From Nanobdellota archaeon (GTDB taxonomy: Archaea; Nanobdellota; Nanobdellia; Woesearchaeales; UBA583): 32,711 nt of DNA. The position numbers and the translations under genes were made by a program. The notes under the pieces are model-generated. The model was not told where the DNA came from, did no database searches, and saw nothing but the letters and a program-made list of their open reading frames with translations. The DNA is taken from contig JAIUMM010000018.1 of assembly GCA_022565615.1 (NCBI GenBank), positions 1 to 32,711 on the forward strand, read 5' to 3'. This document shows positions 19,728-23,614 of this stretch, piece by piece. Each line of letters begins with the position of its first letter. Position 1 is the first letter of the stretch.

Positions 19728-20384
19728 ATGTTAGATAATGTTAATACTAATTTAGAGTTTATTTTGAGCTCTTGTTCTCAGAGAGGAACTTTTCTAGAAA
19801 ATCAGAGTAGTAAGTTAGATACTGGTGTTAAGATTTTATCTTCTCCTTCTCAAGTTTTAGAAGCATTTAGACTTAGATATAAAATGTATGAAAATTCAGA
19901 TTTTAAAAATTTTTTTAAAAATTCTCAAGAAATGTTATTTAGTAAAAGTGATTTAACTTCAGTTATTATTGGATATTATTCTCCTCTAAGTAATAGTTCT
20001 AATTCAACATTATTAGGAACTTTGAGTTTGGATATCGGGGATGTATTAAAGTCCGAATATTATGGGCTTGATGTATCTAATTTAAGAAGAGAGAGTATTA
20101 ATTTAGCAGAACTACATGGTCTTGCAATTGATAGAAAAGTTTGTAGAAGAGCGTTTAATCCATTATTTAATTCAATGGTAAATATTGGGAGAACTTGTTT
20201 TGAAATTGATGCATATTTAATGGTTATGAGAGATGAGTTAGTAAAATTATATAGAAATTTTAAAGATATTGAAGTTCATAAAACATTTGATTCATTCATG
20301 AGTATTGATGTATCACAATCTGCTTTAATCTATACTCCTATAAAAATTATAAAAAATAACTCAACTCCAAGAGGTGAAATGTAA
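19728..20384 (+). CDS. GNAT-fold acyltransferase, N-acyl amino acid synthase (FeeM)-like
   Basis: This 218-residue protein has the layout of the autoinducer-synthase/FeeM branch of the GNAT fold. That branch transfers long acyl chains, often from acyl carrier protein, to amino acids or related amines. Supporting segments are VLEAFRLRYKMYE (residues about 43-55, the family's conserved entry motif), LLGTLSLDIGD as the central strand, NLAELHGLAIDRKVCRR as the strand and loop where a glutamate and the cofactor site sit, and LVKLYRNFKDIEVHK near the end. No close family name is certain, and an acetyl-CoA enzyme is possible. It is translationally linked with the methyltransferase that follows, so the two may work on one small molecule. 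Confidence 0.5.
   Translation: MLDNVNTNLEFILSSCSQRGTFLENQSSKLDTGVKILSSPSQVLEAFRLRYKMYENSDFKNFFKNSQEMLFSKSDLTSVIIGYYSPLSNSSNSTLLGTLSLDIGDVLKSEYYGLDVSNLRRESINLAELHGLAIDRKVCRRAFNPLFNSMVNIGRTCFEIDAYLMVMRDELVKLYRNFKDIEVHKTFDSFMSIDVSQSALIYTPIKIIKNNSTPRGEM
20371..20377 (+). promoter_or_regulatory. Shine-Dalgarno sequence for the methyltransferase
   Basis: GAGGTGA, a seven-base match to the anti-SD of archaeal 16S rRNA, ends 8 bases before the ATG at 20386. It decides that start over the in-frame GTG at 20374, which lies inside the motif itself. Confidence 0.7.
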
Positions 20385-20385
20385 T

Positions 20386-21048
20386 ATGCAACAAGTAATT
20401 TTAGATAGTGTGTGGAAAAAGTATTGTGAATTGTATGCTACATTTACTCCTTCTTTTCAAAGAGATTTATTAGAAAAAACAGCTAGACATTGTTCAGGTT
20501 ATGTAGTTGATGCTGGAGTTGGGGTTGGTAAAATGTTAGAGTATTATGATTCAAATTTAAATGTAAGTGGAGTTGTAGGAGTTGATTCATCAAATGATAT
20601 GTTAGGTATTGCTAAAAAATTTAATTCCAGAAGAGGTTTGGAAATTATATTAAAAAATGGTGATGTTAGAACTTTTGAATCTTATGATATTGCAGATACA
20701 GTTGTTTCATTAAATGTGTTATATGCTCTAAGAGATCCTATTGAATATCTTAATTTTTTAAGTTCTTCAATGAAAGAAAACTCAACACTTGTAATGTCTT
20801 CTCAAAATAGAGATTTAGATTTAAAAAAAGTCCAAAATGCTCTTGATGAAGAATTTAGTGGAGATGATTTTGAGAAGTTTAAACAAATTCAATCAGATTT
20901 AAGTGTTACTTCAACTCTCTCAACTCGAAGGTTTTCATTAGAGGAGATGGTTTCATTATTTAAAATTTCAGGTTTTGAAGTTATTGATTTAGATTCTCAA
21001 ACATATTTAGGTTCTAATTTTTTTATTGTGGGTAAGAGGAGAAGGTAA
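20386..21048 (+). CDS. Class I SAM-dependent methyltransferase
   Basis: From the ATG at 20386 this encodes 220 residues. Motif I is VVDAGVGVGKMLEYY (glycine-rich SAM loop, with Val where a Cys or Gly is common). VVGVDSSNDMLGIAKK is motif II with an acidic residue that would bind the ribose. NGDVRTFESYDIADTVVSLNVLYAL contains the motif III-IV strands, and the end ISGFEVIDLDSQTYLGSNFFIVGKRRR is the usual antiparallel C-terminal pair. It fits Methyltransf_11/25-type enzymes acting on small molecules; the substrate is not evident. The ATG lies one base after the acyltransferase stop with a good Shine-Dalgarno sequence inside that gene, so both are on one transcript. Confidence 0.85.
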   Translation: MQQVILDSVWKKYCELYATFTPSFQRDLLEKTARHCSGYVVDAGVGVGKMLEYYDSNLNVSGVVGVDSSNDMLGIAKKFNSRRGLEIILKNGDVRTFESYDIADTVVSLNVLYALRDPIEYLNFLSSSMKENSTLVMSSQNRDLDLKKVQNALDEEFSGDDFEKFKQIQSDLSVTSTLSTRRFSLEEMVSLFKISGFEVIDLDSQTYLGSNFFIVGKRRR

Positions 21049-21154: not shown

Positions 21155-22261
21155 TTAAATAAATTTATTAATTTGAATATTTGCAGAAAGAAATTTTGTA
21201 AATTCAATTTCTTCTCTTGATAATTCTCTTTTTAAATATATTATGTTAAACACATATTTATTTGTTATTGAGTTTTTTTCAAAGTTTGTTTTAATATCAA
21301 GTCCAAATTCAATAATTCCTTTAAGAATAAAAATACAAAAATTTTCTAAATTTTTGTTTTTATTAAAATCTAGATTTTCAAATATTTGAGTACGTAATTT
21401 TAATACTATTTTAGATTTATTTTTTAATATTATTTTGGTCTCTCCAATACCAATAAGAGATGTTTGCAGTAGAAGTGTTTGAAAAATTTTATCATTATCT
21501 TTTACTCCAAATACATTTCTTTGAAGTTCAACTGCTGAGTAGAGTTGTAGTTGAGCAATTATTTCAAGTGTTTTAGAATTTTTTTGAGTTATTATATTAA
21601 ATAAGTTATCAAGAATCTCAAATGGGATAAATACGCCTGATGTCTTCCATAAACTAAGGATTCCATTTTTAATTATAAGTTGTTTTTCATGTTTAATTTT
21701 AGCAATAATTGGATTTTCAATTTGAGCATAATCTATATTATTTTTTTGAATTAAGTTAACTTTTTCATTTTTTTTTTGAACACTTATAATTTCTTTAAAC
21801 GTGTAAAATAAATGTGTATTGTTTTCAGAGATTTTTAAATTTGAAATTTTAATTCTCAATATTTCTTCTAAACAATTATAAAGTATGTTAGAAATTATTT
21901 TCTCACAAATTTTTGAAGATGTTAACTTATAAACTTGTTCAAAAATTTTACAAATATATTTTTTATGTGATATAATAATTTTATTTTTTGAGAGAATTTT
22001 AACTTCAAGTTTTCCAAAACCAAATTGATTAATTATATTTAAAATTTTATTTATTTTTTCTTTAGAATTGATATTTGATGTAATGCTAAGTGAAATAATC
22101 TTTGATGTTTGAAATGAAATTTTTTTAAAATTTATGTTATTTATATTGTTTTCATTTTTCTCTAATTCTTGAATTATTAAAAGAAAAGAACTCATAGGAA
22201 AGAGCATTCCAAATATTTCACAATATTTGATTCCTGAGGTAGTAAATAATATTGAACTCAT
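21155..22261 (-). CDS. Duplicated-domain protein (possible V4R-like pair) in a KaiC-like operon
   Basis: This 368-residue protein appears to be an internal duplication. Residues ~4-158 and ~203-344 share a TSG-plus-helices start (FTTSGIKYCEIFGMLF versus LWKTSGVFIPFEILDNLF) and a later unit: GFGKLEVKILSKNKIIIS at 81-98 versus GIGETKIILKNKSKIVLK at 271-288, each followed by a helical segment and a closing strand. The order 'G-x-G strand, strand, helix, strand' recalls the V4R ligand-binding domain, but the cysteines typical of V4R are not kept in place, so this is a tentative link. It starts one base after the KaiC-like gene and is the last of three co-oriented genes. Its function is unknown. 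Confidence 0.55.
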   Translation of the reverse strand: MSSILFTTSGIKYCEIFGMLFPMSSFLLIIQELEKNENNINNINFKKISFQTSKIISLSITSNINSKEKINKILNIINQFGFGKLEVKILSKNKIIISHKKYICKIFEQVYKLTSSKICEKIISNILYNCLEEILRIKISNLKISENNTHLFYTFKEIISVQKKNEKVNLIQKNNIDYAQIENPIIAKIKHEKQLIIKNGILSLWKTSGVFIPFEILDNLFNIITQKNSKTLEIIAQLQLYSAVELQRNVFGVKDNDKIFQTLLLQTSLIGIGETKIILKNKSKIVLKLRTQIFENLDFNKNKNLENFCIFILKGIIEFGLDIKTNFEKNSITNKYVFNIIYLKRELSREEIEFTKFLSANIQINKFI

Positions 22262-22262
22262 T

Positions 22263-22985
22263 TTAGTAGTCTAATAAATGTATATTTATTCCTTTATTTG
22301 TAATTTCAAGTGGATGAATATCTTCATTATTTTTTGTTTTTCTCATCTTTGAAATTGTAAGAGTTCTTGAGTATTCTCCTCCTAATGATTCAAATTCTAA
22401 ATGAAATACTCCATCACACGCATATTTTGCAATTGTTGTGACTTGTGAATCTTCTTCTTGACAAATAATTATTGATGTTGTTTGAAGCTCATTTAATTTA
22501 GAGATAAATTGATAAATAAATTTTCTAATTTGTAGATTTGTAGTATCTTGTTCATAGAGTAAATATGAAAGAGTGGATATTGAATCAATTACTACTCTTT
22601 TTGCTTTTGTATCTATAATAATTTGAATTATATCATTAATAGTCTTTTGATTTATTTCATCAATTCCAAGTGAGATTATTTTTAAGTTATTGACTTTTTC
22701 TAATTTTTCAATATCCCAGCCAAATTGAATTGCTTGTTTTTTAAGAGAATCTTTTTTTTCTTCAAATGTAAAATATATCCCTTTTTCATTATATTCTTGT
22801 GCTCCTTTTACTAAATATTGAAGAGAGAATATTGTTTTTCCACAACCTGCTTTTGCAATTAGAGCTGTTGAGCTAAATTTAGGGATTCCTCCTTCAATGA
22901 GTGAATCTAAATGTTCAATTCCAGTTTTAACTCTTTGAATTTGAAGGGAGTTTGTATTAGTGGTGGTATTGGTTTGTTTTTTCAT
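22263..22985 (-). CDS. KaiC/RAD55-family ATPase, single domain
   Basis: This 240-residue RecA-fold ATPase of the KaiC/RAD55 group (COG0467) opens with RVKTGIEHLDSLIEGGIPK, the family signature. The Walker A segment is AKAGCGKT at 44-51, with Ala in place of the first Gly. Paired glutamates in TFEEKK at 75-76 match the KaiC catalytic glutamate pair, and Walker B VVIDSIST has its Asp near 134. Such proteins couple ATP hydrolysis to signalling or assembly. A longer TTG-started frame (23072) would overlap the upstream gene; the ATG at 22985, four bases after that gene's stop, is preferred. It lies in the middle of a three-gene operon with two unknown partners. Confidence 0.85.
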   Translation of the reverse strand: MKKQTNTTTNTNSLQIQRVKTGIEHLDSLIEGGIPKFSSTALIAKAGCGKTIFSLQYLVKGAQEYNEKGIYFTFEEKKDSLKKQAIQFGWDIEKLEKVNNLKIISLGIDEINQKTINDIIQIIIDTKAKRVVIDSISTLSYLLYEQDTTNLQIRKFIYQFISKLNELQTTSIIICQEEDSQVTTIAKYACDGVFHLEFESLGGEYSRTLTISKMRKTKNNEDIHPLEITNKGINIHLLDY

Positions 22986-22989
22986 TTTT

Positions 22990-23289
22990 TTAATAATATT
23001 TTTTTGTGCTATAAATGATATGGTAATGTGTTTTACTCTCAAGTACTTGTGTAGGAACTGAGTTTGATGCAAGTAATACTTTTCTATGACTTTTTGGAGC
23101 TAAAAAATATTTTGAGCTATCTTTTTTTCCTCTAACTACAATTTTAGATTGTTCTGTTGCATTTTTGTCTGCAAAAATAGTAATATTTTCCATTACACCT
23201 TGTAATTTTTCAAATTCTTTTTGACTCATTTCAAATGTTACATGAAGAGTTGTGTCTTTGTTTGCTTTTACTGATATTATTGAACTCAT
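22990..23289 (-). CDS. Small conserved-looking protein heading the KaiC-like operon
   Basis: This 99-residue basic protein is the first gene of the operon. The N-terminal half reads as strands followed by a helix (SVKANKDTTLHVTFEMSQ, KEFEKLQGVMEN) and the rest is strand-rich with clusters of Lys, Arg and Tyr (IVVRGKKDSSKYFLAPKSHRK). No transmembrane helix or cysteine occurs. I do not recognise a family. A compact beta-rich basic domain could bind nucleic acid or the neighbouring ATPase. A TATA-like box lies 26-27 bases before the ATG, making it the transcript start, and the stop is four bases from the ATPase ATG, so it is likely made with the ATPase. Confidence 0.6.
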   Translation of the reverse strand: MSSIISVKANKDTTLHVTFEMSQKEFEKLQGVMENITIFADKNATEQSKIVVRGKKDSSKYFLAPKSHRKVLLASNSVPTQVLESKTHYHIIYSTKKYY

Positions 23290-23614
23290 AGTTGAAATTT
23301 TAGTATTTGATTTTATAATACTTTTTATTATTTTTAAGTTTTAATAGTCAATTTATATAAAATAAAGTATTAAATATTAAATTTTGAACATTTTTTATAC
23401 TAATTTTGAGTATTTTTATTAAAAATATGGTATTTTAGGATATTTTTTAAATATTTTAGATATGATTTTTAAAAATCTATGTTCTTTTAGGTTTATGAGT
23501 ACAAATTTTGAATATCTTAGTCAATTTTATAAGTGAATTATAAGTAAAGTTTGTAAGTTTTAAAATTGAAAATAGTTTTTATGGTGTGAGCTATTTTAAA
23601 TAAATTCTAGTTAA
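23290..23614. other. Gene-free AT-rich interval of 325 bases
   Basis: It contains the TATA box of the KaiC-like operon near its left end. The rest is AT-rich with short TTATAAGT and GAATTATAAGTAAAG motifs near 23526-23550 that are not clear repeats. I see no gene, tRNA or hairpin of note. Confidence 0.5.
23311..23320 (-). promoter_or_regulatory. TATA-like box for the KaiC-like operon
   Basis: The reverse strand reads TATTATAAAA, centred about 26-27 bases before the ATG at 23289. Confidence 0.55.

Follow-up and report, generated by a model that had tools for sequence, protein, structure and literature searches.

A KaiC-V4R cassette of Nanobdellota archaea that may belong to a hitherto undescribed small-molecule signalling circuit

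Background

A role as signalling hubs, each with different partners, has been proposed for the KaiC-like ATPases of archaea (Makarova, Galperin and Koonin 2017, as cited in PMC5847659), and the inputs and outputs of these hubs have so far been mostly obscure. A stretch of 32,711 nucleotides from a tiny and probably symbiotic Nanobdellota archaeon, here termed the window, raises this question in a concrete form: a KaiC-like ATPase is encoded between a small protein and a larger protein of 368 residues, and one may ask what such an ATPase would sense and what it would control. Below we describe evidence that the locus may represent a hitherto undescribed circuit by which archaea signal with small molecules.

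The operon and its KaiC ATPase

The three genes run on the reverse strand in the order 99-aa protein (P0003; 22990..23289), KaiC/RAD55-type ATPase (P0001; 22263..22985) and 368-aa protein (P0002; 21155..22261), with gaps of 4 bases between the first and second and 1 base between the second and third. The open reading frames thereby confirm the preliminary description of this DNA, which had placed three reverse genes at 23289, 22985 and 22261 with the same gaps. The start of the KaiC gene was taken as the ATG at 22985; a mechanical ORF caller runs on to a TTG at 23072. Direct reading of the promoter region (23311..23361, reverse strand) revealed two TATA-like elements 5' of the 99-aa gene. The distal one, TTTATATAAA, occupies about 23361-23352; the proximal one, TATTATAAAA, occupies 23320-23311 and so is situated about 22-31 nt 5' of the ATG, a spacing as would be seen for a leaderless transcript.

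The middle gene encodes a single-domain protein that scores 190.9 bits against PF06745, above the gathering score of 26.6 (E=2.7e-56), and matches KaiC chains in the PDB down to 1e-47. Both the catalytic pair (E75/E76) and the Walker B strand (VVIDS) are intact, in agreement with the initial recognition of this protein as a KaiC/RAD55 ATPase with an EE pair. Its Walker A reads A44-K-A-G-C-G-K50-T51 (AKAGCGKT), with alanine in place of the first glycine and the remainder unchanged. The substitution had been pointed out before and is genuine, but its significance was overstated, the change being a mild one: alanine at this position occurs in active P-loops, such as those of helicases. The first glycine is kept in the KaiC sequences that we read from relatives of the same genus. 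As a separate observation, the KaiC-domain protein NEQ174 ranks third among the most abundant proteins of Nanoarchaeum equitans (PMC3149612).

The KaiC fold and a remote score to ArlH raise the prospect that the operon is a switch for the assembly of the archaellum or pili, in the manner of ArlH/FlaH. However, the ArlH model gives 51.6, far under its cut-off of 215, KaiC models score higher, and none of the archaellum or pilus genes was seen beside the cassettes, leaving this explanation very improbable.

Diverged duplication in the third protein

V4R domains are prokaryotic relatives of the TRAPP subunit Bet3, and their ligands are presumed to be hydrophobic (PMC2253512). The 368-aa protein had been described as an internal duplication recalling these domains, and we examined the two parts of this claim at the profile level. 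The 99-aa and 368-aa proteins of the window belong to no Pfam or NCBIfam family that we could find; the latter has no Pfam match at E 1, falls below the gathering score of PF02830, and none of the four members of its family that were tested matches the V4R Pfam model. Used as a single query against the relatives it retrieved almost no matches, and the cassette in relatives was found via KaiC and the small protein. The halves were then cut from an alignment of the 368-aa family made without other V4R proteins. In hhalign comparisons the N-terminal and C-terminal halves match each other at a probability of 93% (E 2.9e-7), as against 0.2% when one half is reversed, and this supports the duplication. 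Against the single V4R proteins adjacent to KaiC in other genomes the halves give 96.7% (N) and 97.0% (C), with the reversed-sequence controls for the half comparisons reaching at most 0.3%. These matches point to two diverged V4R-like domains spanning approximately residues 1-160 and 195-345.

Proteins occupying the third slot in the genomes G167 (408 aa) and G292 (385 aa) are recognised by the V4R profile, with E-values of 1e-26 and 5e-19 respectively, and these tandem-V4R proteins align end to end with the 368-aa family. They keep the V4R Cys motif in their first domain (loci L077 and L096), as do the single V4R proteins of relatives, two of the four KaiC-adjacent representatives tested exceeding the Pfam cut-off. 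When searched against the PDB, a single-V4R profile recovered MopR (3e-11), PoxR-type regulators and MJ1460; the 368-aa family alone reaches MJ1460 at E 0.098 and does no better. Thus, the suspected V4R likeness holds at the profile level, but the Pfam cut-off is missed and the C-terminal Cys/Gly motif is absent from the window protein when it is aligned with the V4R proteins of its relatives. We describe the latter as a diverged duplication whose V4R membership is by remote homology only.

The kinship with Bet3 (PMC2253512) might also suggest a membrane-remodelling or trafficking module, with KaiC as the ATPase of a Bet3-like V4R protein. Yet the cassettes have neither membrane nor coat genes in linkage with them, the neighbours are biosynthetic and operator pairs occur in the promoters (see below), so that this explanation appears scarcely probable.

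The small protein

The first gene encodes a member of a Nanobdellota family with the core RGKNEATKYFLIPKELR. The family was detected in 55 of 353 genomes from the order, in 36 of the 371 that make up a phylum-wide sample, and at 46 loci in named GTDB genomes. Nearly all of these 46 loci are labelled Woesearchaeota, Pacearchaeota, Nanoarchaeota or simply 'archaeon'. The one exception is a contig labelled Nomurabacteria (L116; MFTH01000004.1), which shares its layout and a 100% identical small protein with a Woesearchaeota contig (L115) and is likely to be misbinned. Four stand-alone copies of the gene (L088, L093, L098, L145) lie near a gene for a coiled-coil protein of about 450-500 aa, the promoter of which has a palindrome of the operator described below.

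Sequence searches recovered no Pfam or PDB relative of the small protein, no match of 24 family members to the AbrB-type model PF04014 at E 0.1, and no internal sequence repeat. An AF2 model of a central family member attained a pLDDT of 89 with an alignment of 56 sequences (42 with 8 sequences). In Foldseek searches against the PDB its sensible matches were dominated by DNA-binding proteins of the swapped-hairpin type (C56, C68, MazE, VapB), all below significance (best E 0.94, prob 0.60), and the viral models yielded nothing useful. Furthermore, the C-terminal half, with the motif YFLIPKELR, aligns in register with AbrB domains from the same genomes at 41% in hhalign, with reversed controls under 1%. 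Given the weak structural matches and this hhalign value, we treat the predicted AbrB/MazE-like DNA-binding fold as a lead and not as a settled assignment.

Conservation of the cassette and its two types

The preliminary description had asked whether the three genes stay adjacent in other genomes. This is indeed the case: the exact trio is present in identical order in G004 (98, 227 and 344 aa), rearranged forms occur in G005 and G003, and the arrangement small protein-KaiC-V4R is met again across both the taxonomic order and its class. Neither of the outcomes that the preliminary description had named as refuting was encountered, the likeness of the third protein to V4R being judged at the profile level. 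In G005 the small-protein gene and the KaiC gene are each present twice, one KaiC copy being broken by unresolved sequence, and a 371-aa homologue of the third protein follows. G003 has a small-KaiC-small arrangement, and its contig also carries two third-type genes. Further third-type genes are unlinked in G003 and G005. In G033 the small protein and KaiC are followed by a 180-aa V4R protein above the Pfam cut-off, and V4R proteins also adjoin KaiC in G007, G052 and G038. In G003 and G004 a nitroreductase-family gene is found just 5' of the small-protein gene on the same strand (L025 2622-3308; L032 2806-3498).

Among 75 distinct small-protein genes that were read, 8 begin a small-KaiC-V4R cassette, here termed type A, and 17 begin a second kind, type B, in which the third gene encodes a tandem protein of about 370 aa; the remainder are truncated where a contig ends, represent divergent copies or stand alone. 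The N-terminal half of the type B third protein matches V4R at 97.4%, its C-terminal half weakly at 53.9%. In a phylogenetic tree the type B KaiCs form one clade (100/100) apart from the V4R-adjacent type A KaiCs. The window KaiC groups with type A, the position of its genus in the tree being weakly supported.

Putative synthesis operons facing the cassettes

Immediately downstream of the window cassette, and convergent with it, we noted a pair of forward genes that the preliminary description had not mentioned. The first (19728..20384) encodes a FeeM/LuxI-type N-acyltransferase (PF21926, 48.9 bits against a cut-off of 27, E 8.2e-13) and the second (20374..21048), overlapping it by 11 bp, a SAM-dependent methyltransferase (PF13489, 1.2e-11). 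A profile of 11 FeeM-type enzymes from relatives retrieved from the PDB FeeM itself (2g0b, 5e-10) and acyl-homoserine-lactone synthases (2e-7 to 3e-4), with plain GNAT acetyltransferases also among the best relatives. G005 has both genes at the same place, at 27% (FeeM) and 31% (methyltransferase) identity to those of the window. In G167, G233 and L132 the two are fused into a single protein facing the V4R gene, and in G292 (L096) a FeeM gene (E=8.9e-13), a gene for a 246-aa protein, the small protein, KaiC and V4R follow each other on one strand.

FeeM is a rare gene, present in just 16 of the 353 genomes of the order and in none of the phylum-wide sample outside it. The small-protein family is found in 11 of these 16 genomes (Fisher p=1.2e-6, ignoring relatedness), and for 14 of the 17 FeeM places in the 353 genomes a KaiC-V4R pair is no more than 5 kb away (a generous random model gives about 3e-17 for this), counting G053 and G349, whose cassettes are split or cut by contig ends. 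At three FeeM places (two in G117 and one in G270) KaiC-V4R faces FeeM in genomes where the small-protein gene was undetected. The linkage of the KaiC-V4R cassette to the FeeM and methyltransferase genes is therefore well supported. It bears on the possibility that the cassette is a generic KaiC hub, of the kind proposed for archaea (cited in PMC5847659), in which V4R would sense an external or host hydrophobic compound and the FeeM and methyltransferase genes would be passengers or unrelated targets. Some cassettes do lack FeeM: it was undetected in G003 and G004, and neither it nor the methyltransferase is near the cassette in G003, G004 and G033. Nevertheless, this degree of linkage of a rare gene, together with common operators, is hard to obtain by chance, and we consider a generic hub distinctly improbable.

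The type B cassettes face a different operon, which encodes a UbiA prenyltransferase together with an FAD oxidoreductase, in nearly every locus that is long enough. In the loci L270-L282, L285, L122 and L154 the oxidoreductase is geranylgeranyl-reductase-like, and an HMGL-type, homocitrate-synthase-like enzyme is sometimes included in the operon. Among the type A loci, a B12-binding radical SAM enzyme is encoded directly 5' of FeeM in L075, L083 and L085 (by Pfam) and in L031 and L267 (by likeness), and ThiF-like genes occur in L094 and L112.

The initial suggestion of a signalling or assembly switch can be narrowed in the light of these operons: signalling fits, and can be stated more sharply because the module faces a FeeM/methyltransferase operon, while assembly is not supported.

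A paired promoter element

The hexamer GGATAA/TTATCC is the most enriched 5' of the small-protein genes, being present in 57 of 69 as against 93 of 563 other genes. Pairs of half-sites 19-22 bp apart, or about two helical turns, are found 5' of 30 of 73 small-protein genes (Fisher 4e-16), 9 of 16 type A synthesis operons (3e-8) and 5 of 11 type B synthesis operons (1e-4), compared with 18 of 420 control operons; these Fisher values ignore the relatedness of the genomes. Further spacings lie at multiples near 40 and 61, and longer upstream sequences revealed pairs directly 5' of UbiA in several more genomes. The element was tested on operon-first genes; directly 5' of the FeeM and methyltransferase genes enrichment of TTATCC looked absent. 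These promoter-level tests replaced a genome-wide count of the palindrome GGGATAA-N-TTATCCC, whose presence per genome is uninformative since most of its matches in genomes without the small-protein family are inside coding sequence.

The small protein can only be called a candidate for the binder, as the element is also encountered 5' of genes of other kinds, for example TFE-like ones in a genus (g106) where a GGGATAA...TTATCCC palindrome precedes the TFE-resembling gene (L225, L226, L228, L229, L230, at about 1501). In many type B cassettes (L118, L119, L121, L122, L125, L127, L138, L142 and others) a second, diverged small-protein gene is head-to-head with the first, and the intergenic region of about 100-200 bp often has operator half-sites. 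No paired sites are present in the window or its close relatives, and the operator part of our proposal is hence inapplicable to the window copy. In the window genus divergence has affected the promoter as well as the third protein, so that its version of the circuit may be altered.

A proposed circuit

The observed genes, their homologies and linkage, and the DNA element common to the relatives can be brought together in a proposal to which we give an even chance of being correct: in a small-molecule regulatory circuit, the three genes would serve for sensing and response, and the convergent pair for synthesis. The FeeM-type enzyme would acylate an amino acid or a comparable amine, and the product would probably be capped by the methyltransferase. 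The V4R-type protein would bind this hydrophobic product and alter the ATPase activity or oligomeric state of KaiC, which would in turn shift DNA binding by the AbrB-like small protein. In relatives the latter would act at the paired TTATCC/GGATAA sites about 20 bp apart, in its own promoter and that of the synthesis operon. The sensed product would be acyl in type A and prenyl-derived in type B. We infer the identity of the ligand, the direction of the circuit and its function, and likewise the contacts of V4R with KaiC and of KaiC with the small protein, the binding of the operator by the small protein and any exit of the signal from the cell.

A stronger form of this proposal is a KaiC-based cell-to-cell signalling system of DPANN archaea, with FeeM/LuxI-like synthases, V4R receptors, KaiC as transducer, an AbrB-like output and acyl-amino-acid signals (prenyl-derived in type B), which we hold to be unlikely. 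Alternatively, the circuit could provide intracellular feedback control of a biosynthetic cluster by its product (an acyl-amino-acid, an aminolipid or another compound; an isoprenoid in type B), with no signalling between cells. The synthesis operons vary (FeeM/methyltransferase, UbiA/FAD, an AMP-binding enzyme), as biosynthetic clusters do, they often include B12-radical-SAM, ThiF or HMGL genes, and in relatives the operator is common to them and the cassette, all of which would suit such feedback. Although the resemblance of FeeM to autoinducer synthases might tell against it, the products of FeeM are N-acyl amino acids of uncertain role, and the observations made here fit this reading and the signalling one alike. 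We regard product feedback alone as somewhat unlikely.

Under the circuit proposal, the locus offers the KaiC hub a concrete input in V4R, a likely output in the AbrB-like small protein and its candidate operator, and, in FeeM/methyltransferase or UbiA/FAD, a possible source of the ligand. As these are kept together across many genomes, the pathway is open to direct tests on purified proteins. Were the product secreted, it would give tiny symbiotic archaea, most of them uncultured, a chemistry for signalling.

Comparison with known systems

We did not find the combination of a small AbrB-like protein and KaiC with FeeM/methyltransferase or UbiA/FAD genes in the open-access papers searched, which deal with KaiC hubs, with V4R domains and with quorum-sensing homologues of DPANN archaea, a scope outside which Makarova 2017 falls. 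NAMEs, which are AHL analogues, are of a product type attainable by an acyltransferase and a methyltransferase; they are likened to the putative product by type alone, and take no part in AHL signalling. As in the LuxI/LuxR and FeeM systems, an acyltransferase of the FeeM/autoinducer-synthase family adjoins a ligand-sensor gene and a putative DNA-binding gene; unlike LuxI/LuxR, the cassette has no LuxR, with V4R as the putative receptor and KaiC as the putative transducer. With the phenol-responsive regulators MopR and PoxR and with MJ1460 it would share the V4R ligand-binding fold, the third proteins of relatives keeping the Cys motif, whereas the V4R-like copy in the window is duplicated and devoid of the cysteines. 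In MopR the V4R domain is fused to an AAA+/DNA-binding regulator, in contrast to the separate V4R, KaiC and small-protein chains of the cassette. Finally, like the archaeal KaiC hubs for which a signalling role has been proposed (cited in PMC5847659), it places a single-domain KaiC beside sensor-type genes, and to this arrangement it adds a conserved small AbrB-like protein and a FeeM/methyltransferase or UbiA/FAD operon.
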